From IMG/VR virus record IMGVR_UViG_3300029954_000068, positions 1-27,841 of that record: 27,841 bases of DNA, one strand, 5' to 3'. The notes beneath the pieces were generated by a model. The model ran no database searches and was not told the DNA's origin. It worked only from the letters and a program-made list of their open reading frames with translations. The DNA comes from a virus. Positions 6,910 to 15,401 of the stretch are shown piece by piece; the stretch's first letter is position 1, and each line of letters opens with the position of its first letter. The translations under genes and the position numbers were made by a program.

Positions 6910-7689
6910 TCATGTCACCAGTCCTGCCACAGCCGTTTCAAGCGTTTTCCCGACGCCAGACATCACTTGCGTCGCCTGCGTCGTGATACTGGTCACAATC
7001 GAGGAAACAGACTGTACCGCTCCCTGGAAACTGCTTTTCACAGTATTCACATCAAGCTGTAGTGGCGTTTGTTGGTTCGTCGGCGTCGGCGTGTTTTCTG
7101 CTGTGCAGACCCATCCCTGATTTTGCGGATCACTCCCCGATGCCGTCGCCGTGCTCGAATAAGACGCTTGCGCACTCACTCGAATCTCTGTCAAGTGAAC
7201 CTCGGCTATTAGCAAGCTCAAGCCAGACGAACTCTTGCGTTGATAGTCGAGCCGGTCAATATTGTAATTGCTGTATGTTTGATCCGGCGTAACCACCGTA
7301 ACAAGCGTGAGCGATTCATATAAGCCGGTAAGCACCGCAAGAAAAGTATCGCGCGGCATATTTTTCCCACCACATGCCAACCGCAAAGTCAGCTCCTGCG
7401 GCATCGCCACTTTGTTGTAGGAGGAAAATCCGCCCTCTTCAACAGGGTACGACGCGACGTGCTGCTCACCACGATAGCTCAACTCCACTACGGAATCCGG
7501 CGTAATCAGAGCATTACCTTGAGCGTCTGCGATGATCCATTGCGGCGCATCGCTAGGCAAGAATCCGAAATAATCCAGCCCTTGGAGTTGCTGAACGATG
7601 CCTGTGCGCACGCCAATGGCAAGAGGCAACTGGTTGAGATCGGGAACTCCGGCAACCAGCGGCACATTTGGAAATTGAATCAAGCTCAT
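6910..7689 (-). CDS. Dit-like baseplate protein
   Basis: The 259-residue protein follows the tape measure with a 4-bp ATGA overlap. It opens MSLIQFPNVPLVAGVPDLNQ and has the strand-rich pattern of the Dit-like phage tail N-terminal domain (residues about 60-175: VVELSYRGEQHVASYPVEEGGFSSYNKV, then LTLRLACGG, RLDYQR). The V-x-x-Y-P-V-E-x-G-x-F-x-S-Y-N-K-V segment is the clearest hallmark. The C-terminal 60 residues are Ser/Thr/Val-rich and helical, possibly pairing with tape measure or hub. It likely forms the ring joining tube to baseplate. Confidence 0.82.
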   Translation of the reverse strand: MSLIQFPNVPLVAGVPDLNQLPLAIGVRTGIVQQLQGLDYFGFLPSDAPQWIIADAQGNALITPDSVVELSYRGEQHVASYPVEEGGFSSYNKVAMPQELTLRLACGGKNMPRDTFLAVLTGLYESLTLVTVVTPDQTYSNYNIDRLDYQRKSSSGLSLLIAEVHLTEIRVSAQASYSSTATASGSDPQNQGWVCTAENTPTPTNQQTPLQLDVNTVKSSFQGAVQSVSSIVTSITTQATQVMSGVGKTLETAVAGLVT

Positions 7690-9485
7690 GTCATGCCCGT
7701 CATTGCGCCCGTAATTAAGCCGTTATTGTTCAGCGCCGTCTTCATTGAAGCGGCAATTGCCGTACCATCTTTGGCGTTATTCGCGTACACGTTCAGAGTG
7801 TTAATTGTCGTGTCAATTTTGTTCGATGCCGAAGCCTGCTTATCGGGACGCCCATACATGGCACGATTCGCGGCAGCAATCATCGGAGCCAAAGAAGGAA
7901 CCTTCCCGGAATTCATGATTGATTTCAACTTCGATCCGTACTGCGGATCGGTAGCATATTTCCCTGTGAGAGCATCGGCAAAAGCATTTGGGTCATCGGC
8001 ATGCGCACGCGCACCCGCGTATGCAGGACTTGTCGCCAATAATTTTGCATGCGCCTCAAATGCTTCCGCGATGGTGTCAAATTTTGCGAATTTTTGAACT
8101 ACTCTCTGCATGCGTCCGTCGATAAATTCATTCGTTTCCGCTTCGACATACGCCTGTCCTGACTTGGCTTTAATTCCAAAAGGATTATTGCTGCCTACTG
8201 GCATCCGCTTTCCGGAATTGCTTTCAAGCTTATATTGCGCTAGCTGTACGGATGCGGGAACATGATATTTATCTTGTAACCGCTTGGCTATTGCAGCCAC
8301 GTCTTCGGTGTCGCCCGATTTTGCAGATTTATCTCGTGCGGCCCACATCTTGTTCATTTTTTCATCTTCGCCAGCGTTAAGTTCGCCAGAGTGAAGCATG
8401 AGCGCTGCCGGGCCAATCCATCGCATCAATCCAGTAGCAGCGACACCTAGTAACGATGTTTCTCCGACCGCTGCGGCACCGGCACCAGCCTCCGCTGCAC
8501 CGCCACCAACTGCTGATACTGCTTTTCCGAATACTGCCTTTGCAGCGGCCTTCGCAGCCACAACTCCACCAACCCCAGCAACAACGGTTCCTGCCGCAGT
8601 CTCAGCGGGATGGCTTGCCATAGCATCGTTGAAGTCTTTCAGAAGTTTCGTTCCCTCAGTCAATGCAGGTGAGAGCTTTGTGAAGATGGTGGCACCAGTC
8701 TGGCCGATAGTGCTTTTGAATTGATTCCATGCTTGATCGGCTTTTTGCGCCTCATCCACATTCTTTTGCGTCACCTGGGAAAGTTTATCGGCCTCATCAT
8801 AAAGTCCCTCAAATCCTTTTTTGCCATCCTGCAACATCTGGATCATCGTAGGGCCGAGATGCAGAAAAGTTTGAAGATCGTTGAATATATCGCTCTTATT
8901 CTTTCCCTCTTGCGACTTGGCGATAGCAGAGAGAATATTTTTCATATTGCCACTGGCAAGATCATCCTTATTAACGCCGAATTTTTGCAACTCTGTCGCA
9001 AATATCGAGTCTTCCTTATCTGGATGCCTCTCTTTAAGATCCGTCTTTAATTTTGAAACCTTTGCGGCAAAAGCATCAAATTCCGCAGGATCGCCACCCA
9101 TTTTTTTCACCGACATATGCCACGCATCAAGCTCATGCGCATCCATACCAAGGTTATGCGATGCAGCACTCAATTGCGACAGACCGCCGATTGTAGCTGC
9201 AAGTCCTGCACCGGCAATGGTAGCAATACCAGCCGCCATGCCCATGATTTCGAAGCGGACGCTACTGTACTGATCCGCTAATTTCTTTGCGGCTTCCTGC
9301 TCCTTCTTGCGTTGAACAAGTTGCTCATTACTGGCTTTTTTCGTTGCTTCAGCAGATTTTTTCGCGTTAGCTTCCTGCCCGTCTGCCAGCTTCTTTCCAA
9401 CCTTGTCCGCCTCAGATACGCCTCGCGTGTAGCCGGACGTATCAAGGCCAAGCGTCACAATTAATGCATCAAGTATTGTTGCCAT
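7686..9485 (-). CDS. Tape measure protein with GH73-like muramidase domain
   Basis: The 599-residue protein starts directly after the tail chaperone extension. Residues about 20-75 are a charged coiled coil (KKSAEATKKASNEQLVQRKK), then a hydrophobic stretch near 80-105 and a long helical part. An Ala/Gly-rich membrane-like region lies near 295-370. Residues about 395-530 look like a FlgJ/GH73 glucosaminidase: VPASVQLAQYKLESNSG with candidate catalytic Glu421, NNPFGIKAKSG, and ALTGKYATDPQYGSKL near 505-520. This domain probably opens peptidoglycan when the tape is ejected. The length predicts a fairly short contractile tail. The start has no strong ribosome site, fitting coupling to the chaperone extension that ends at 9469. 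Confidence 0.92.
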   Translation of the reverse strand: MATILDALIVTLGLDTSGYTRGVSEADKVGKKLADGQEANAKKSAEATKKASNEQLVQRKKEQEAAKKLADQYSSVRFEIMGMAAGIATIAGAGLAATIGGLSQLSAASHNLGMDAHELDAWHMSVKKMGGDPAEFDAFAAKVSKLKTDLKERHPDKEDSIFATELQKFGVNKDDLASGNMKNILSAIAKSQEGKNKSDIFNDLQTFLHLGPTMIQMLQDGKKGFEGLYDEADKLSQVTQKNVDEAQKADQAWNQFKSTIGQTGATIFTKLSPALTEGTKLLKDFNDAMASHPAETAAGTVVAGVGGVVAAKAAAKAVFGKAVSAVGGGAAEAGAGAAAVGETSLLGVAATGLMRWIGPAALMLHSGELNAGEDEKMNKMWAARDKSAKSGDTEDVAAIAKRLQDKYHVPASVQLAQYKLESNSGKRMPVGSNNPFGIKAKSGQAYVEAETNEFIDGRMQRVVQKFAKFDTIAEAFEAHAKLLATSPAYAGARAHADDPNAFADALTGKYATDPQYGSKLKSIMNSGKVPSLAPMIAAANRAMYGRPDKQASASNKIDTTINTLNVYANNAKDGTAIAASMKTALNNNGLITGAMTGMT

Positions 9486-9696
9486 GTGATTGAGTATTTC
9501 TGTTATGGATATTTACGGAATGCACTTCGATAATGTCCCACATATCCTCGGCACCATAAACCGTCTGCAATTCATGCAAGGTACATAGCTCGCTGCTTAA
9601 CGCAAAACCGATAGCTGTGGAAACATTCGCGTATGCCATATGTGGCGCGGCATGACCATCAGGGATGCCAAAATCAAGCCCCTGACGGCCGTCTAA
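9469..9696 (-). CDS. -1 frameshift extension of the tail assembly chaperone
   Basis: After the slippery heptamer at 9702-9696, the -1 frame is open for 75 codons and stops at TGA 9471-9469, 17 bases inside the tape measure gene. It begins LDGRQGLDFGIPDGHAAPHM and includes TLHELQTVYGAEDMWDIIEV, the sort of acidic amphipathic helix seen in the second part of tail chaperones. The only internal ATG (9639) has no ribosome site, so independent initiation is unlikely. The fused product would be 202 residues (127 + 75), analogous to lambda gpGT. The region would otherwise be an unexplained 207-bp gap in a tightly packed operon. Confidence 0.82.
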   Translation of the reverse strand, partial: LDGRQGLDFGIPDGHAAPHMAYANVSTAIGFALSSELCTLHELQTVYGAEDMWDIIEVHSVNIHNRNTQSHGNNT

Positions 9697-9702
9697 AAAC
9701 CC
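9656..9702 (-). promoter_or_regulatory. Programmed -1 ribosomal frameshift signal
   Basis: Slippery heptamer G-GGT-TTT (GGGTTTT, 9702-9696) ends in the 0 frame directly before the TAG stop (9695-9693). After a 7-nt spacer (9695-9689), CCGTCAGGG (9688-9680) pairs with CCCTGATGG (9664-9656) in a 9-bp stem with one G-U pair and a 15-nt loop. Heptamer type, spacer length and stem fit a canonical stimulator. Confidence 0.82.
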
Positions 9703-10076
9703 GCGTGCAGGCGAAATATCTCACGCCGAAGCTTGAACAGTGTCGCCACTTCTTCGATGTCACCATCAGAGATGCCGCGAATGATGTTCGGCTGTGATGC
9801 CGAAGGTATAAAGCTGACGCAGCGCATCATTTCGTCAAGCAGCGGCTCTGCATCCATTGGATCGAGCTTCAATAACGACACCAGCAAGATTTTCTTGAGT
9901 CCCGCAATGCCATCATTTTCGATACCAGGAGGTATATCAGCACCAGAGCGACCGGCTGCCAATAGTAGTCGAACTGCAAATTTCTCTGCATGGGCGGCAG
10001 GCATCTCCGTGAGTTGGTAAGTTTTACCTTTATCGCGGCCCTCGTCCGTTACCGTGTAGGTAATTTGCTTTCTCAT
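9693..10076 (-). CDS. Tail assembly chaperone, short (0-frame) form
   Basis: The 127-residue protein starts at an ATG (10076) that overlaps the tube stop as ATGA, with GAGG seven bases upstream. The product begins MRKQITYTVTDEGRDKGKTY, then QLTEMPAAHAEKFAVRLLLA, LLVSLLKLDP and a C-terminal IEEVATLFKLRREIFRLHAGF. The T-D-E-G-R-D-x-G-K-x-Y-x-L-x-E-M-P-A segment is typical of phage chaperones next to DUF3277 tubes. It coats the tape measure before tube polymerisation. The 0-frame stop comes immediately after a slippery heptamer, so most ribosomes make this form and a fraction make the 202-residue fusion. A longer open frame to 10106 overlaps the tube gene and has no better ribosome site. Confidence 0.88.
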   Translation of the reverse strand: MRKQITYTVTDEGRDKGKTYQLTEMPAAHAEKFAVRLLLAAGRSGADIPPGIENDGIAGLKKILLVSLLKLDPMDAEPLLDEMMRCVSFIPSASQPNIIRGISDGDIEEVATLFKLRREIFRLHAGF

Positions 10077-10507
10077 GCTGTCGCCTCGCCGATAACCTGT
10101 TCCCAAGCAATAACGAAACTCACTGCTTCCAGCACTTTCTTGGCATTCACGATCTTGTTGCCGGACTTGAGGATGCCGTTAATCAGCGAGTATTTACGAT
10201 TGATCGACGGGACGATGATTGTTGCATTCGCGTAGTATACTTCTCGCGCAGTGCGTTGTGCCGTCATCCAATTTTCAAATATCGGCAACGATGGCGAGTC
10301 AGGCATGATTGCAATTTTTAGATTTGTCGGATTGAAGATAAAGCCTCCGCTCATATGTCCATCCACGCCCATGACGATCTCAGCCATCTCGACCGCTTCC
10401 GCGCTAAATGCATCGTCTGCCGCGTATCCCTGAACGTTTTGCGGGGAATCGTACAGATTCAACACCGCGATACTGAAAGCCGAGTTGGCCGAAGTGATTG
10501 TTGCCAT
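10073..10507 (-). CDS. Tail tube protein (DUF3277)
   Basis: The 144-residue protein starts MATITSANSAFSIAVLNLYD, with GGAG five bases before the ATG at 10507. The upstream in-frame ATG at 10567 would start inside the terminator and is rejected. DUF3277 hallmarks are the opening strand, VQGYAADDAFSAEAVEMAEIVMGVDGHMSGGF and NPTNLKIAIMPDSPSLPIFENW. The protein is the tube that runs inside the sheath. Unusually, the sheath gene is about 4.9 kb away rather than adjacent. It overlaps the chaperone by 4 bp. Confidence 0.93.
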   Translation of the reverse strand: MATITSANSAFSIAVLNLYDSPQNVQGYAADDAFSAEAVEMAEIVMGVDGHMSGGFIFNPTNLKIAIMPDSPSLPIFENWMTAQRTAREVYYANATIIVPSINRKYSLINGILKSGNKIVNAKKVLEAVSFVIAWEQVIGEATA

Positions 10508-10521
10508 GAGTGCTCCAAAAT

Positions 10522-10545
10522 AAAAAAGCCGCCAAAAAGGCAGCC
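10522..10545 (-). terminator. Intrinsic terminator upstream of tube gene
   Basis: On the minus strand GCTGCC-TTTTT-GGCGGC (one mismatch) is followed by TTTTTTATTTT. It stands between the small membrane gene and the tube and is the second of two tandem hairpins. Confidence 0.8.
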
Positions 10546-10558
10546 TTATAAATGCGAA

Positions 10559-10577
10559 AACCGGCACTTGGCCGGTT
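10559..10577 (-). terminator. First hairpin of a tandem terminator
   Basis: AACCGGC at 10571-10577 on the minus strand pairs with GCCGGTT at 10559-10565, apex CAAGT, followed by TTCGCATTTAT. The T-run is weaker than in the neighbouring hairpin at 10522-10545. Confidence 0.65.
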
Positions 10578-10870: not shown

Positions 10871-11407
10871 CTACCAAGTAATGGCCTGTATTGCCGACAA
10901 GGACGTGGCCGCATTCACAGCGGCCTTTTTAGTTTGCAGATGCTGAAATGCCAGCGCGCCCTGCGCACCAAAAGCGAATGCCAGTCCTTGCATATCGCCA
11001 TAGGTGAACGGCACCTGTGTATTGTCGGCAGCTACCCAGTAAAAGCCGGGCTGAGTTGCACCCGCCAGCTGAAATGTCCATAGCATCGCTTCCAAATTCT
11101 CGACGCTCTTCTTATCGGCCTGATACATCTTCGTGATGCCGCCAGCACTGGTATAACTTACTGCCTGCTGTTTAGCTAGGTCGTAGGCCGAAACTAGTAG
11201 CGCAATCTGCCCAGCCTGCGCTGTGGCAATCTCTGACGAATTCAAGGGGCGAACGATCCATGCGTTATTCTCCACGTCAGCCACTATTATCGAGTCCGCA
11301 CTGCTGTTGGACGGCGGCGCTATGGTGAGACAATACGGGATAGTCACATCATCAGCCGCTTCGCCTGCGTATTGCAGTGATTCAGGGTAATAGAGATACT
11401 TTGTCAT
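10871..11407 (-). CDS. DUF4376-like protein, putative fibre assembly factor
   Basis: The 178-residue protein begins MTKYLYYPESLQYAGEAADD. The C-terminal half is DUF4376-like: KMYQADKKSVENLEAMLWTF, then FYWVAADNTQVPFTYGDMQGLAFAFG, then a helix ending LQTKKAAVNAATSLSAI. The N-terminal half carries VADVENNAWIVRPLNSSEIA. The W-x-A-A-D-N-x-x-V-P-F-T segment is the clearest match. It is the last gene of the island between sheath and tube and is closed by a strong terminator. A second copy of this domain is at 509-1054, so the phage may have one factor per fibre set. The assembly role is inferred. Confidence 0.65.
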   Translation of the reverse strand: MTKYLYYPESLQYAGEAADDVTIPYCLTIAPPSNSSADSIIVADVENNAWIVRPLNSSEIATAQAGQIALLVSAYDLAKQQAVSYTSAGGITKMYQADKKSVENLEAMLWTFQLAGATQPGFYWVAADNTQVPFTYGDMQGLAFAFGAQGALAFQHLQTKKAAVNAATSLSAIQAITW

Positions 11408-11429
11408 TGGCGACCGCCCATTCGTAAGT

Positions 11430-11451
11430 CTCCAGCCCGAAAGCTGGAGGC
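11430..11451. repeat. 7-bp perfect hairpin upstream of DUF4376-like gene
   Basis: CTCCAGC (11431-11437) pairs with GCTGGAG (11444-11450), apex CCGAAA, plus a closing G-T pair. There is no T-run on either strand, so it is not a convincing terminator. It lies in the 61-nt gap before the start at 11407 and could affect the mRNA leader. Confidence 0.5.
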
Positions 11452-11468
11452 ATTCTTAAAGCCCGTTA

Positions 11469-12128
11469 TTACTGGCCGAGCGATACGCTAACTTCTTCCC
11501 AAGACAGACTTGCCTTGACGACGTGCGTCGTACCGGCAGCTTGTGCAAAGATGCCCAGGATCGCACCTGGCGGAACGATCACATCGCCCGCGGTTTCCTC
11601 GTCCACCGTGTAGACGCCCGCGCCAGCCGCAACAGCTGCCGGGCCGCCGATCTGACGCAGCTCCGAAACAACAATAGACGTACCGGCCAGCGCCGCGTTA
11701 GCGATCACGCTCGCCTTGCTGACTGCCTGCAGTGTCGATGCTTGTACACCCTTGCTCGATGCGCCCGTGTAGCTGGCAGCCTGACCGTTCAGGTAGCCGA
11801 ACATGAAACCGCCGCCCGGCGTGCCCGACAGCGTCAGCACCTTGGTACGGTTGATCACAAGGTTCACGCCGGAATTGACCGGGTTCATCAGCGCAAGGAT
11901 CGGCGTAGCAGCACCTGCGGCAGGAACGGCAGCACCGATTGCGCTGGTCGTCGCTAATGTAATACCAACGCCAGCGATATTCGCATGGAAATTGTTGCCG
12001 TTGAGCGACGACTCAGCATATTTGCCGTGCAGCTCTGAGACGACGAGTTCGCCTTGGGCTGACATGCGCACCGTGGTGCTTGTACCTTTGGCTACTGCTT
12101 GCTGACCTACTTGACCTTGAAATTGCAT
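11469..12128 (-). CDS. Hypothetical virion protein, Ala/Gly/Val-rich
   Basis: The 219-residue protein is not assigned to a family. It begins MQFQGQVGQQAVAKGTSTTV and is rich in Ala, Gly, Val, Thr and Ser. A long hydrophobic stretch (GVGITLATTSAIGAAVPAAG, about 53-72) precedes ALMNPVNSGVNLVINRTKVL. The C-terminal third, with GDVIVPPGAILGIFAQAAGT followed by VVKASLSWEEV, has the look of a beta-sandwich head or fibre domain. There is no cleavable signal or catalytic motif. Its neighbours are the coiled-coil protein at 12159-13208 and a DUF4376-like gene, so it is probably a fibre or decoration protein of the inserted island. Confidence 0.6.
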   Translation of the reverse strand: MQFQGQVGQQAVAKGTSTTVRMSAQGELVVSELHGKYAESSLNGNNFHANIAGVGITLATTSAIGAAVPAAGAATPILALMNPVNSGVNLVINRTKVLTLSGTPGGGFMFGYLNGQAASYTGASSKGVQASTLQAVSKASVIANAALAGTSIVVSELRQIGGPAAVAAGAGVYTVDEETAGDVIVPPGAILGIFAQAAGTTHVVKASLSWEEVSVSLGQ

Positions 12129-12158
12129 GATTATTCTTTCGTTGAAAAATTAATTGAA

Positions 12159-13208
12159 TTACTGAACGGCGCTGAAATCGGCCCGTAGCGTCGCCGGGTC
12201 TTCCTTGATTCGAAGCTCATTCGCCCACATCGCATTCGACAGGGAAACTTCCTGCACGAGCTGAGAGAGAAGCTCAATCACCAAATTGAACTGCTCGTAG
12301 CTGATCGCGACCCCGGCGCTCGAATTGACCTGTGCCGAGCCGGTCGTCAGATTCGATACGGCAACCGTGCCGCTGACAGACTGCGTCGCCGGGAGGTTCG
12401 TCACATGCGTGAGCGCGCCACCATCCACATTTAGCGCAGGTTGCAACGCTGCGATGGCTGTCAATTGCGTCAGCTCATTGTTTTCTATCGTGCTGAGCGC
12501 TGACTGAAGCGCGCTGATGTTGGCGCTTGTAGCAATCGGATTGAGCGCTGCCACAATTTGCGCCAGCGTTGCGCCGCCGCCTAACGTGGTGCCGAGTGCC
12601 GTGATGTTTGTCGCAATTGTGCTGAGCGTCGAAAGCTCTGTCGTGGCAGCCGTGTTCAAGGAGGCCAGACTCGCAATGATCGTCGCCTGATTCGCGGCTG
12701 TTGCCCCCGCCTGAGTAGCTGACTGGATCGCGGCAAGTGCGGCATTACCTGTCGTGACCAGCCCTTGCAGGTTGATCCCATCCGTGTGCAGTGTTCCAAG
12801 TGCCGTGTTACCCGTCGAAATCAGTGACTGAATATTCGAAAGTGCGCCCGCTAACGATGCCGTCTGAGACGTGATCGTCGCCGCCGAAGCATCGCCGCTT
12901 GCGACACTCGACTGAACAACATTGACGGCGCTTGTTACGGCATTCACCGCTGTCGTGACGTTGCCCACCGCTGTGTTGATGCCGGTCAGCGTCGAATTCG
13001 AGCTAGTCAGGTCAGTATGAAGCTGAGCGACAGCAGTCTGAACGGCATTGACTGCCGAAGTTGTCGCATTCACGGCCGCCATGACATCCTGAACGGACGC
13101 GTCCAGCGCGAGCGATCCACCTGATCCCGCAGCCTGTACGACAAGCGGATTGCCAGATACACCGGTCGGATTATTGCTTTGGTCAAGCAGTTGTACCTGT
13201 GCGGTCAT
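12159..13208 (-). CDS. Long coiled-coil repeat virion protein
   Basis: The 349-residue protein begins MTAQVQLLDQSNNPTGVSGN and has AAGGA before the ATG. Residues about 35-265 are a long run of Ala/Thr/Ser/Gln/Leu/Val-rich heptad-like repeats such as VNAVTSAVNVVQSS, TGNTALGTLHTDGINLQGLV and TGNAALAAIQSATQAG. Nearly no charged residues occur in this stretch. The C-terminal 60 residues are more mixed (YEQFNLVIELLSQLVQEVSL, LRIKEDPATLRADFSAV). The composition suggests a rod-like trimeric coiled coil. The N-terminal domain could attach it to the virion. It belongs to the fibre-like island; I do not recognise a family. Confidence 0.65.
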   Translation of the reverse strand: MTAQVQLLDQSNNPTGVSGNPLVVQAAGSGGSLALDASVQDVMAAVNATTSAVNAVQTAVAQLHTDLTSSNSTLTGINTAVGNVTTAVNAVTSAVNVVQSSVASGDASAATITSQTASLAGALSNIQSLISTGNTALGTLHTDGINLQGLVTTGNAALAAIQSATQAGATAANQATIIASLASLNTAATTELSTLSTIATNITALGTTLGGGATLAQIVAALNPIATSANISALQSALSTIENNELTQLTAIAALQPALNVDGGALTHVTNLPATQSVSGTVAVSNLTTGSAQVNSSAGVAISYEQFNLVIELLSQLVQEVSLSNAMWANELRIKEDPATLRADFSAVQ

Positions 13209-13217
13209 TTTTATTCC

Positions 13218-13526
13218 TTATGAGAGTTGGTAGCCGACGACGAATTTGCCCATAAACTCCCCTCGCTTCGGTTGCAGATCAAAGCGGATTGTGCCGTTTC
13301 CAGGAGTGGCGAAGACATTCACCTGTTCGAGATAGGCTTCTTGAGTCGAGCGACCATTTGATGGAGATAGTCCAAGCACCTGGGCAACGACAATCGATGT
13401 CGGTTTAACTAGCGCATCCGTGATCGTGAATGTCGCATCTCCAACATATTCGCTACCTACGTCCAACTCGACCGCTTTGAAAGCGCCTGCGACCTGCTCC
13501 GCGGCGTTAAGAACCGTTTTTGGCAT
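13218..13526 (-). CDS. Small beta-rich virion protein
   Basis: The 102-residue protein begins MPKTVLNAAEQVAGAFKAVE and reads like a single beta-sandwich: YVGDATFTITDALVKPTSIV, VAQVLGLS, then QVNVFATPGNGTIRFDLQP and KFVVGYQLS at the end. It overlaps the preceding coiled-coil gene by 20 bp, which argues that both are real and coupled. No family is recognised. Its size and place next to fibre-like proteins suggest a decoration or fibre-tip cap protein. Confidence 0.55.
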   Translation of the reverse strand: MPKTVLNAAEQVAGAFKAVELDVGSEYVGDATFTITDALVKPTSIVVAQVLGLSPSNGRSTQEAYLEQVNVFATPGNGTIRFDLQPKRGEFMGKFVVGYQLS

Positions 13527-13755
13527 TCTTCACGACCTTCTTTGCGCGCACCTGATCGCGAAGAGTCGCGTTGTCAGATTCAGCAGTCTGCAATCGCTTT
13601 TTCAATGCATCGATCAATGCAACGTTCTCGGCATCTTTTTGCAGCAACTGATCGCGCTGGATTTCAAACAGCATCGCATTGGACGCATGCACACCAAGCT
13701 CGGTTTGCAAACGACCAAGCCACAGCATATTGAGATGTTGATGTTGATTGTTCAT
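13507..13755 (-). CDS. Small coiled-coil protein
   Basis: The 82-residue protein starts MNNQHQHLNMLWLGRLQTEL; the ATG at 13755 has GGAG eight bases upstream. The longer frame (ATG at 13800) would begin at the preceding gene's stop inside a terminator and is less likely. The central part (about residues 20-70: LFEIQRDQLLQKDAENVALI, ALKKRLQTAESDNATLRDQV) is a regular charged coiled coil, ending in a Lys-rich tail (AKKVVKNAKNGS). It may be a structural linker or scaffold for the fibres. No family is recognised. Confidence 0.6.
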   Translation of the reverse strand: MNNQHQHLNMLWLGRLQTELGVHASNAMLFEIQRDQLLQKDAENVALIDALKKRLQTAESDNATLRDQVRAKKVVKNAKNGS

Positions 13756-13768
13756 CCGTGTTTCTCCG

Positions 13769-13793
13769 AAAACCCCGACCAGAAGGCCGGGGG
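13769..13793 (-). terminator. Terminator-like hairpin after fibre-like gene
   Basis: On the minus strand CCCCGGCC-TTCT-GGTCGGGG (one mismatch) is followed by TTTTCGG. It sits between the gene ending at 13800 and the next start at 13755. Confidence 0.65.
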
Positions 13794-13799
13794 ATTGCA

Positions 13800-14837
13800 T
13801 TACTTGACGTAGTTGGCGCGCAACTTGTCGCTTGTTACCGGGGCAAACAGCATCGTGATGGCATTACCGGCCAATGTGTAGTCGTTACCAGCGCCCGGCT
13901 CCAGCAGCACACCGTTCAGATACAACTCCAATTGATAAGCGTTGGCATTGGCCAGTGTAAACGCAGTGTTCGTTCCGTCAATCGTGCCTGCCGGTGTTTC
14001 GTTCGACACCAGATCGCCATATTTCAGGAAACCGCTGCCCGAGGTGTTATCGACGGCAATGACGCCAGCACCAGACAATGTTGCATCGCCGGTTACGCCC
14101 GACCATGCTGGCTCACCAGAGCTGTTCGAAACGATGATCTGGCCAGCAGCGCTTGTACCGCCAATAGCGACACCTGCACCCGATACGGCCAGCAGGCCAG
14201 CAGGGTCAGCAACAACCGCGATGTCGCCAGACTTACTGTCGAGCCCAAGGCCATTCCCGATCAATGCCTGAATCTGGTTACCAGTCTTTGTCAGACCATT
14301 ACCTGCGGTGATTTGGTTGCCCGATGTGTCCTGAACCCATGTTGTTGTGGACGCATCGACAGTAATCAGTTCCCCAACATTAGTTGTGGTGCACAGGTAC
14401 TTAGTACTTTCGCCGACAGTGCCCTCATCAACGATGACGTACATGCCTTCGTTTTGAGTGCTGCCCGATGCGTAATCCGCAGTACGGGACCACGCACCTG
14501 AAGCTGCGGCAAACAGACCGTTTTGGGTAGCGTCAGTTTGGCCTACCAGCAGAACGCGATCACCGGCTACCAGTGTTACGCCGTCGATAGTCTGCAAACC
14601 GGTCAGAGCAACGTTGGCTGTCGAAACTACACGAGCCGGAGCCTTGAAAGTCAAGCCGTTCGCCAGACTATCAACATACGATTTGGTTGCTGCATCAGTT
14701 GCATTGACCGGTGCAGCCAGACCATTGATGGCAAAGTTCGCCATGTTCAGCGCGCCAGTCATCGGAACGCTGCCGTCCGACTTCAAGAGCAGCGCGTAGT
14801 CCTGAATCTGGGTACCGCGAATAAGAGTTTGTGCCAT
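13800..14837 (-). CDS. Tail fibre-like / virion appendage protein
   Basis: The 345-residue protein begins MAQTLIRGTQIQDYALLLKS with AGGA upstream. The N-terminal part has the fibre pattern GSVPMTGALNMANFAINGLA, then PVNATDAATKSYVDSLANGL (residues about 42-60) found in many phage fibres. The central part (VNATDAATKS to WVQDTSGNQI) resembles repeated beta-propeller-like or head-fibre modules. The later half is Gly/Ser/Thr-rich with VTGDATLSGAGVIAVDNTSG. The last 45 residues carry ELYLNGVLLEPGAGNDYTLA, a domain shared with the next protein (14850-15128). It is an appendage protein; whether it attaches to tail or head cannot be decided from this sequence. Confidence 0.8.
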   Translation of the reverse strand: MAQTLIRGTQIQDYALLLKSDGSVPMTGALNMANFAINGLAAPVNATDAATKSYVDSLANGLTFKAPARVVSTANVALTGLQTIDGVTLVAGDRVLLVGQTDATQNGLFAAASGAWSRTADYASGSTQNEGMYVIVDEGTVGESTKYLCTTTNVGELITVDASTTTWVQDTSGNQITAGNGLTKTGNQIQALIGNGLGLDSKSGDIAVVADPAGLLAVSGAGVAIGGTSAAGQIIVSNSSGEPAWSGVTGDATLSGAGVIAVDNTSGSGFLKYGDLVSNETPAGTIDGTNTAFTLANANAYQLELYLNGVLLEPGAGNDYTLAGNAITMLFAPVTSDKLRANYVK

Positions 14838-14849
14838 ATTTGTTCCTAG

Positions 14850-15128
14850 TTATATCCAATAAGTTATTGTCAACACATCGCCTAATACGATGTCCATTTC
14901 AACGGGGATGTTGACGAACCCCACTCCAACCTGAAAGCCGCTCGCGCTTTGCTTAACGCCATTCAGAAATACGAATACGCCACGTGCTGCTTGATTGATT
15001 GGGATGCTCTGTGCGCCGCCTGCTGAAGCGATGTAGTCAAACTCCTGCTGCGTTGACGCTTCAAGTTTCTTTAGCCTGCGCAATAGACCGAGCGCAACAG
15101 CATCGATGATTGTATTTGCGATGTTCAC
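14850..15128 (-). CDS. Small virion protein with a fibre-type C-terminal domain
   Basis: The 92-residue protein has a helical N-terminus (DAVALGLLRRLKKLEASTQQ, residues about 10-29) and a beta-rich C-terminal half (GVFVFLNGVKQSASGFQVGV ... DVLTITYWI). The C-terminal half resembles the end of the 345-residue protein encoded next to it (LNGV, then a D-x-L strand and a final Tyr). This suggests shared descent or a common partner. No ribosome site of good quality is seen; the start is 3 bases after the upstream stop, suggesting coupling. Role unknown. Confidence 0.6.
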   Translation of the reverse strand: MNIANTIIDAVALGLLRRLKKLEASTQQEFDYIASAGGAQSIPINQAARGVFVFLNGVKQSASGFQVGVGFVNIPVEMDIVLGDVLTITYWI

Positions 15129-15131
15129 AGA

Positions 15132-15401
15132 TTACGTCCATCCGCTGATAGAAAGCAGATTGCCGGACGCATCCCAAGTCATCGTTTGCGTCTGACTGCT
15201 ACCGCTTGCGGAACGTGTAATCGAAATCAGGTTGTCAGACGCGTCGTAGCTCAGTGCATAACCATAATTTATCGAATCAATCGCCGGGCTATTGACGCCA
15301 ATCGATAGAGGCAAACCTGTCGCCGGATCGATGATGACCACGCCTTCAGCAAATCGCTGATTAACATTTTCGTTTAGATTCGTTGAAACTTTGACTTCCA
15401 T
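15132..15401 (-). CDS. Small YD-repeat-like virion protein
   Basis: The 89-residue protein begins MEVKVSTNLNENVNQRFAEG with an AGGGAG ribosome site. Its C-terminal part contains two tandem repeats, YALSYDASDNLISITR (about 48-63) and TMTWDASGNLLSISGW (about 73-88). These resemble the YD (RHS) repeat consensus YDxxGNLxxIT. The family is normally a large carbohydrate-like wrapping shell, whereas here only two repeats are present, so the domain may act as a short beta strand cap or binding module. It lies at the boundary between sheath and island and is co-directional with both. Function unknown. Confidence 0.6.
   Translation of the reverse strand: MEVKVSTNLNENVNQRFAEGVVIIDPATGLPLSIGVNSPAIDSINYGYALSYDASDNLISITRSASGSSQTQTMTWDASGNLLSISGWT

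Follow-up and report, generated by a model that had tools for sequence, protein, structure and literature searches.

The slippery heptamer of phage lambda is GGGAAAG. In this phage the short gpG binds the tape measure and the tube protein is recruited by the T part of gpGT, at a ratio of about 30:1 (PMC5009743). Frameshifting of the lambda G/GT type, surveyed by Xu, Hendrix and Duda in 2004, is widespread in tailed phages (reviewed in PMC5009743); this agrees with the first-pass annotation of the locus considered here, which had noted that frameshifted chaperones are known in many tailed phages. For two phage TAC genes of another cluster, 6-7% frameshifting was observed in experiments (PMC3711429). 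A conserved TAC frameshift was recently argued for in Vandenendeviridae/Andersonviridae (phage Adele, genus Pakpunavirus; PMC12846349).

A second group of described systems is formed by plant RNA viruses. In BYDV, RCNMV and GRV the slip site has a stop codon directly behind it, and G_GAU_UUU has been proven to act as a slip site in PEMV (PMC4737148). Replacement of the PEMV stop by a sense codon decreased frameshifting more than threefold, whereas the result for BYDV differed between contexts (PMC4737148).

The window, that is, the whole stretch of DNA analysed here (27,841 nt), is IMG/VR virus record IMGVR_UViG_3300029954_000068, positions 1 to 27,841. Its minus strand encodes terminase, portal, protease, major head protein, and contractile-tail and baseplate genes, the tail sheath being identified as DUF3383 by profile matches. 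The tail assembly chaperone gene lies between a tail-tube-like gene (upstream) and the tape measure gene (downstream), an order shared with related phages. As judged from sequence comparison, this one gene very probably yields two tail assembly chaperone isoforms by programmed -1 ribosomal frameshifting. The features of the locus are as follows.

10073..10567, minus strand: E217 gp32-like virion protein, directly upstream of the chaperone (Pfam PF22764, E 1.4e-20; PHROG 1964)
9693..10076, minus strand: tail assembly chaperone, short form (TAC-N, lambda gpG-like), 127 aa, ATG 10076, TAG 9695-9693
9696..9702, minus strand: slippery heptamer G_GGT_TTT, seen in the sequence, with position and codons kept in relatives
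9693..9695, minus strand: 0-frame stop TAG, directly 3' of the heptamer; TAG or TGA there in all close relatives
9654..9690, minus strand: putative stimulatory hairpin, starting 5 nt after the heptamer, consensus arms GGCCGUCAGG / CCUGACGGCC
9469..9696, minus strand: -1 frame extension (TAC-C, lambda T-like position), 75 codons plus TGA 9471-9469
7686..9485, minus strand: tape-measure-like protein with a glucosaminidase domain, 599 aa (PHROG 2013, E 5e-24; PHROG 2276, E 6e-13)

The position of the gene 10073..10567 equals that of the tail tube gene of phage Scipio, and its product is probably the tail tube. The glucosaminidase domain of the tape-measure-like protein is C-terminal (Pfam Glucosaminidase, E 5e-26), and thus this protein may also cut peptidoglycan during injection.

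The chaperone ORF ends with CAC GCG GGT TTT TAG, with GGGTTTT at 9702-9696 in phase; the region of the heptamer and the stop reads GGGTTTTTAG. After the heptamer the -1 frame has 75 sense codons, and its TGA (9471-9469) lies 15-17 nt inside the tape-measure ORF, which starts at ATG 9485. The predicted masses are 14.0 kDa for the short form and 22.2 kDa for the fusion. These data bear out the statements of the first-pass annotation that GGGTTTT stands in the right phase directly before the 0-frame TAG, that the -1 frame is open for 75 codons to 9469 and ends just inside the tape measure gene, and that the fusion should be of about 22 kDa. The 33 minus-strand ORFs of the window contain 24 in-phase X_XXY_YYZ heptamers; at each of the other 23 the -1 frame is open for at most 48 codons, compared to 75 at the chaperone site. 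The arrangement of the frameshift signal in the window is far above chance.

The locus can be compared with each of the described systems. Firstly, it resembles lambda G/GT in that the chaperone gene precedes the tape measure gene, the -1 slip is near its 3' end, a C-terminal domain is added, and the tube gene is nearby. It differs in that the window phage is contractile-tailed and has GGGTTTT, a stop-adjacent heptamer and a predicted hairpin; no sequence relation is claimed. Secondly, phage Adele and its relatives are also myoviruses in which the -1 frame is open in all genomes, the slip motif is poly-T (GTTTTT), and the downstream part was misannotated as a separate gene (PMC12846349). However, they belong to other phage families, and a stop-adjacent heptamer is not among the features described in the passages considered (PMC12846349). 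Finally, BYDV, RCNMV, GRV and PEMV have G_GGU_UUU (BYDV) or G_GAU_UUU, a stop immediately or 3 nt later, and then a stem-loop (PMC4737148). The window heptamer is identical to the GGGUUUU of BYDV, and GGATTTT variants occur among the relatives of the window phage. As far as the layout only is concerned, the window has the same BYDV/PEMV-type order of heptamer, stop within 0-3 nt, and stem-loop. However, the plant sites (luteo-, diantho- and umbraviruses) are read by eukaryotic ribosomes and yield a polymerase product, and the resemblance would be convergent. The first-pass annotation had considered the stop-adjacent layout undescribed for this lineage. Indeed, neither a joined gene model nor a description for the lineage was found in the public records inspected and in open-licence papers, but the layout itself has been published for plant viruses (PMC4737148).

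The short chaperone matches PHROG 1932 over its entire length (E 1e-40, residues 1-127 on profile positions 2-128 of 134). Its match to Pfam Phage_TAC_15 (PF21822) has 14.6 bits and E 0.048, below the gathering cut-off of 22. The AlphaFold2 model of the short form has pLDDT 87.5, and its top matches in the Foldseek viral library are AB1gp01 of Acinetobacter phage AB1 and the ctxpQ22 tail assembly chaperone; a fold search of PDB produced zero matches at E <= 0.001. No solved structures similar by sequence were found for the short chaperone or for the extension. A DNA-level search of the phage collection gave no matches.

At least 80 IMG/VR loci encode a related chaperone, and the 80 listed were compared. 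The -1 extension is open and homologous in all of these listed relatives, with a length of 70-84 codons (three end at a contig edge), and its homology can be aligned in the -1 frame from the slip site onward. The consensus of the extension is FxxRR...YxNVPxxIGxVVSSxxATLxELxTVYGxEDxYDLLEIxxVDxxNxR. The 0-frame tail past the site ranges from 0 to 53 codons in the listed relatives, whereas the site itself is fixed.

The heptamer classes were counted in 58 non-redundant loci among the matches listed. A canonical X_XXY_YYZ heptamer occurs at the site or one codon later in 47/58 of these loci: at the Gly-Phe site in 39, with GGGTTTT in 37, and one codon later (T_TTT_TTN) in eight. The other 11 listed loci have no canonical heptamer; five of them have GGATTTT or GGATTTC, and the possibility of A-site re-pairing (TTTT, TTTC or CCCT) is retained in ten. 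Glycine at the site is always encoded by GGT (42/42), as compared to 16% elsewhere in the gene (p 2e-34, which ignores shared ancestry), and phenylalanine is encoded by TTT in 52 of 55 cases versus 24% elsewhere (p 8e-29, again ignoring shared ancestry). The direction of this effect is unmistakable: the heptamer codons are retained against the codon bias.

In loci L065, L076, L077 and L079, GGGTTTT/GGATTTT is replaced by GGACCCT, so that the A-site codon TTT becomes CCT; the CCC_T re-pairing is kept, and the -1 extension is intact in the three loci without contig-end truncation. A Burkholderiales prophage (L124, around 1889) differs from the other loci: relative to its chaperone, the extension lies in the +1/-2 frame, which may be decay, a sequencing error or a different shift. 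A pattern search for the heptamer followed by a stop and Gly-Arg-Gln matched 16 contigs, but only five of them encode the chaperone; the remaining contigs do not, and were rejected as chance matches.

The extension matches PHROG 3976, a family with no assigned function (E 1.8e-17). A further match, that of the fusion, is to PHROG 18181 (E 1.9e-4 over residues 22-189). The dN/dS ratio (NG86) of the extension in three close pairs is 0.21, 0.22 and 0.31; the protein is thus under purifying selection. AlphaFold2 with 57 aligned extension sequences confidently predicts a three-helix domain (pLDDT 91.3). No match at E <= 0.001 was observed between the extension and the viral structure library; weak fold matches are to small uncharacterised proteins, including one from ctxpQ22 and proteins of Pseudomonas phages PaP1 and PAK_P1 (E 0.2-0.3), which we take to be members of Pakpunavirus. 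As no significant solved or viral-library relative was seen, the T-like role of the extension is assigned by position.

The closest relatives form a group of loci L002, L003, L004, L019 and L100 from IMG/VR and L103, L104, L105 and L106 from the genomes of Paraburkholderia adhaesiva and P. tuberum. In all of them GGGTTTT is immediately followed by TAG or TGA, and then, 5 nt after the heptamer, by a candidate hairpin of nine or ten pairs with a loop of approximately 17 nt. The first-pass annotation had described a 9-bp stem beginning seven bases after the heptamer. The stem is real, but it has ten consensus pairs and begins at 5 nt, the earlier figure corresponding to its inner part. In the window alone, the hairpin has 11 outer pairs and an energy of -22.4 kcal/mol (z -1.66 relative to dinucleotide shuffles).

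The arms of the hairpin are formed by the -1 frame codons GGC CGT CAG (Gly-Arg-Gln) and CCT GAC GGC (Pro-Asp-Gly). Codons CGT and CCT are used in 9/9 sequences of the close group, compared to 11% and 9.5% elsewhere in the same sequences, and this invariance points to selection on RNA. No compensatory (double) base changes are seen in the close group, where seven of the ten pairs never vary; one G-C pair is G-U in both the window and L002, and the window has G-U in place of G-C at one further pair. In the wider family, bases approximately 5-12 after the heptamer are paired with downstream bases more often than in synonymous-codon shuffles, by 0.094 (s.e. 0.027), and the same test at four control offsets showed no excess over such shuffles. 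The minimum free energy over the whole family is not distinctive, with mean z -0.38 at the site and about the same at two other offsets. The support for the hairpin thus comes from the anchored test of pairing and from the invariant codons of the close group.

The comparison of related phages suggested by the first-pass annotation therefore agrees with its interpretation of the locus as a chaperone frameshift: the -1 frame is open and conserved in all listed relatives, the heptamer codons are kept against the bias, and the close group retains the hairpin.

The same data bear on other explanations of the two frames. The records of phages vB_AsaM-56, PA-1, Edno5, Scipio and AB1 annotate the extension as a hypothetical protein of its own that starts internally, and the Orisa03 record leaves most of it unannotated. 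One possibility is that the extension is indeed encoded by a distinct small gene whose translation begins internally, for example at ATG 9639, with no frameshift, and the methionine at ATG 9639 is retained in the close group. However, it is replaced by other residues in the wider family, the homology of the extension begins at the slip site, ahead of any start, and the maintenance of the heptamer codons against the bias would be left unaccounted for. Further, the internal starts of the -1 frame in the window all lack a preceding Shine-Dalgarno-like sequence; as the tape-measure ATG has none either, the missing site is weak evidence alone. Internal initiation is unlikely, and a separate gene as the whole explanation deserves very little credence.

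Slightly less probable still is that, instead of ribosomal slippage, the transcript itself slips on the run of T, or that the stop is read through. Runs of five or more T in most loci could permit slippage of RNA polymerase. On the other hand, not only the T run but also GGG is kept, in the codon phase for tandem slippage, and the hairpin is at the distance proper for the ribosome; readthrough stays in frame 0, where the conserved extension is not encoded. Lastly, in a homopolymer such as this site, a continuous chaperone gene might have been broken by a recent one-base mutation, or might only seem broken through an error of sequencing or assembly in the T5 run. Both possibilities were rejected as next to impossible, since the same frame relation is observed in dozens of independent contigs, in isolated phages and in prophages of cultured genomes.

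For programmed ribosomal frameshifting, we infer the occurrence of slippage, its frequency and the binding partners of each isoform as follows. Most ribosomes would stop at TAG, producing the 127-aa short form (14 kDa). A minority would be slowed by the hairpin, and possibly also by the adjacent stop codon, so that both tRNAs may slip back by one base on G_GGU_UUU. The slipped ribosomes would then add the 75-aa helical domain to produce the rarer long form of 202 aa (22 kDa). If the division of roles follows that of lambda gpG/gpGT, the tape-measure protein would be coated by the short form, and the extra domain of the long form would bring in tail-tube subunits, allowing the tube to polymerise to its correct length. 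As the end of the extension overlaps the start of the tape measure gene, translation of the latter is possibly coupled to the frameshifting ribosomes.

A different arrangement of the same domains was found in Bcep781. Here the PHROG 1932 chaperone is gp46, and directly upstream of it an ordinary ORF encodes the 170-aa protein gp47, identified via the fold search; the two genes adjoin and are located upstream of the tape measure gene. The C-terminus of gp47 resembles PHROG 3976 (E 8e-9) and matches the extension profile (hhalign E 2.7e-10); residues 3-38 of the protein show a weak match to the chaperone profile (E 2.5e-4). The gp46 gene has no Gly-Phe site at its end and is followed by only 25 open -1 codons, and thus, given that the long form appears to have a gene of its own, frameshifting would not be needed there. 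Homologues of gp47 were found in 22 Burkholderia and Xanthomonas records, including 17 from Xanthomonas. Hence, by sequence, the Bcep781-like (Naesvirus) and Xanthomonas phages appear to have one gene for the long form and another for the short form. The likeness to the window phage is a short PHROG 1932 chaperone next to an extension-like domain upstream of the tape measure; the difference is that the long form appears to be made from a separate upstream gene, as opposed to a frameshift. In the Bcep781 genome (L125), gp47, which belongs to PHROG 18181, lies beside gp46 at 32215-33134.

A more tentative, and rather doubtful, suggestion is that the stop codon (TAG or TGA) behind the heptamer is itself a part of the signal, the Bcep781-like phages using two genes instead. 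In the Paraburkholderia-associated lineage, termination pausing or ribosome queueing would then set the long-to-short ratio. If the stop is a part of the signal, this would be a bacterial counterpart of the BYDV layout, and if the Bcep781-like phages use two genes, both solutions could be compared among relatives. The co-occurrence among relatives of the frameshift and the apparent two-gene solution would make the question why tails need two forms in a set ratio genetically testable.

On present sequence evidence, the locus is best read as a candidate case of lambda G/GT-type frameshifting, the main additions being the predicted role of PHROG 3976 and the contrast with the Bcep781-like phages. 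This provides a likely function and a corrected gene model for PHROG 3976. Several of the phage records checked, among them those of Obolenskvirus phages of Acinetobacter baumannii, give its members as stand-alone hypothetical proteins; the present reading indicates that the long form of the chaperone has escaped notice in such phages.

The genes for the tail sheath and the tail-tube-like protein adjoin in related phages, for example, Scipio and PA-1; in the window they are separated by approximately 4.5 kb of minus-strand genes (10871-15401). Among these genes are one for a DUF4376 protein that matches tail-fibre PHROGs (10871-11407) and one for a protein of 345 aa with matches to head-decoration and virion families (13800-14837); a short match to RHS repeats lies at 15132-15401.
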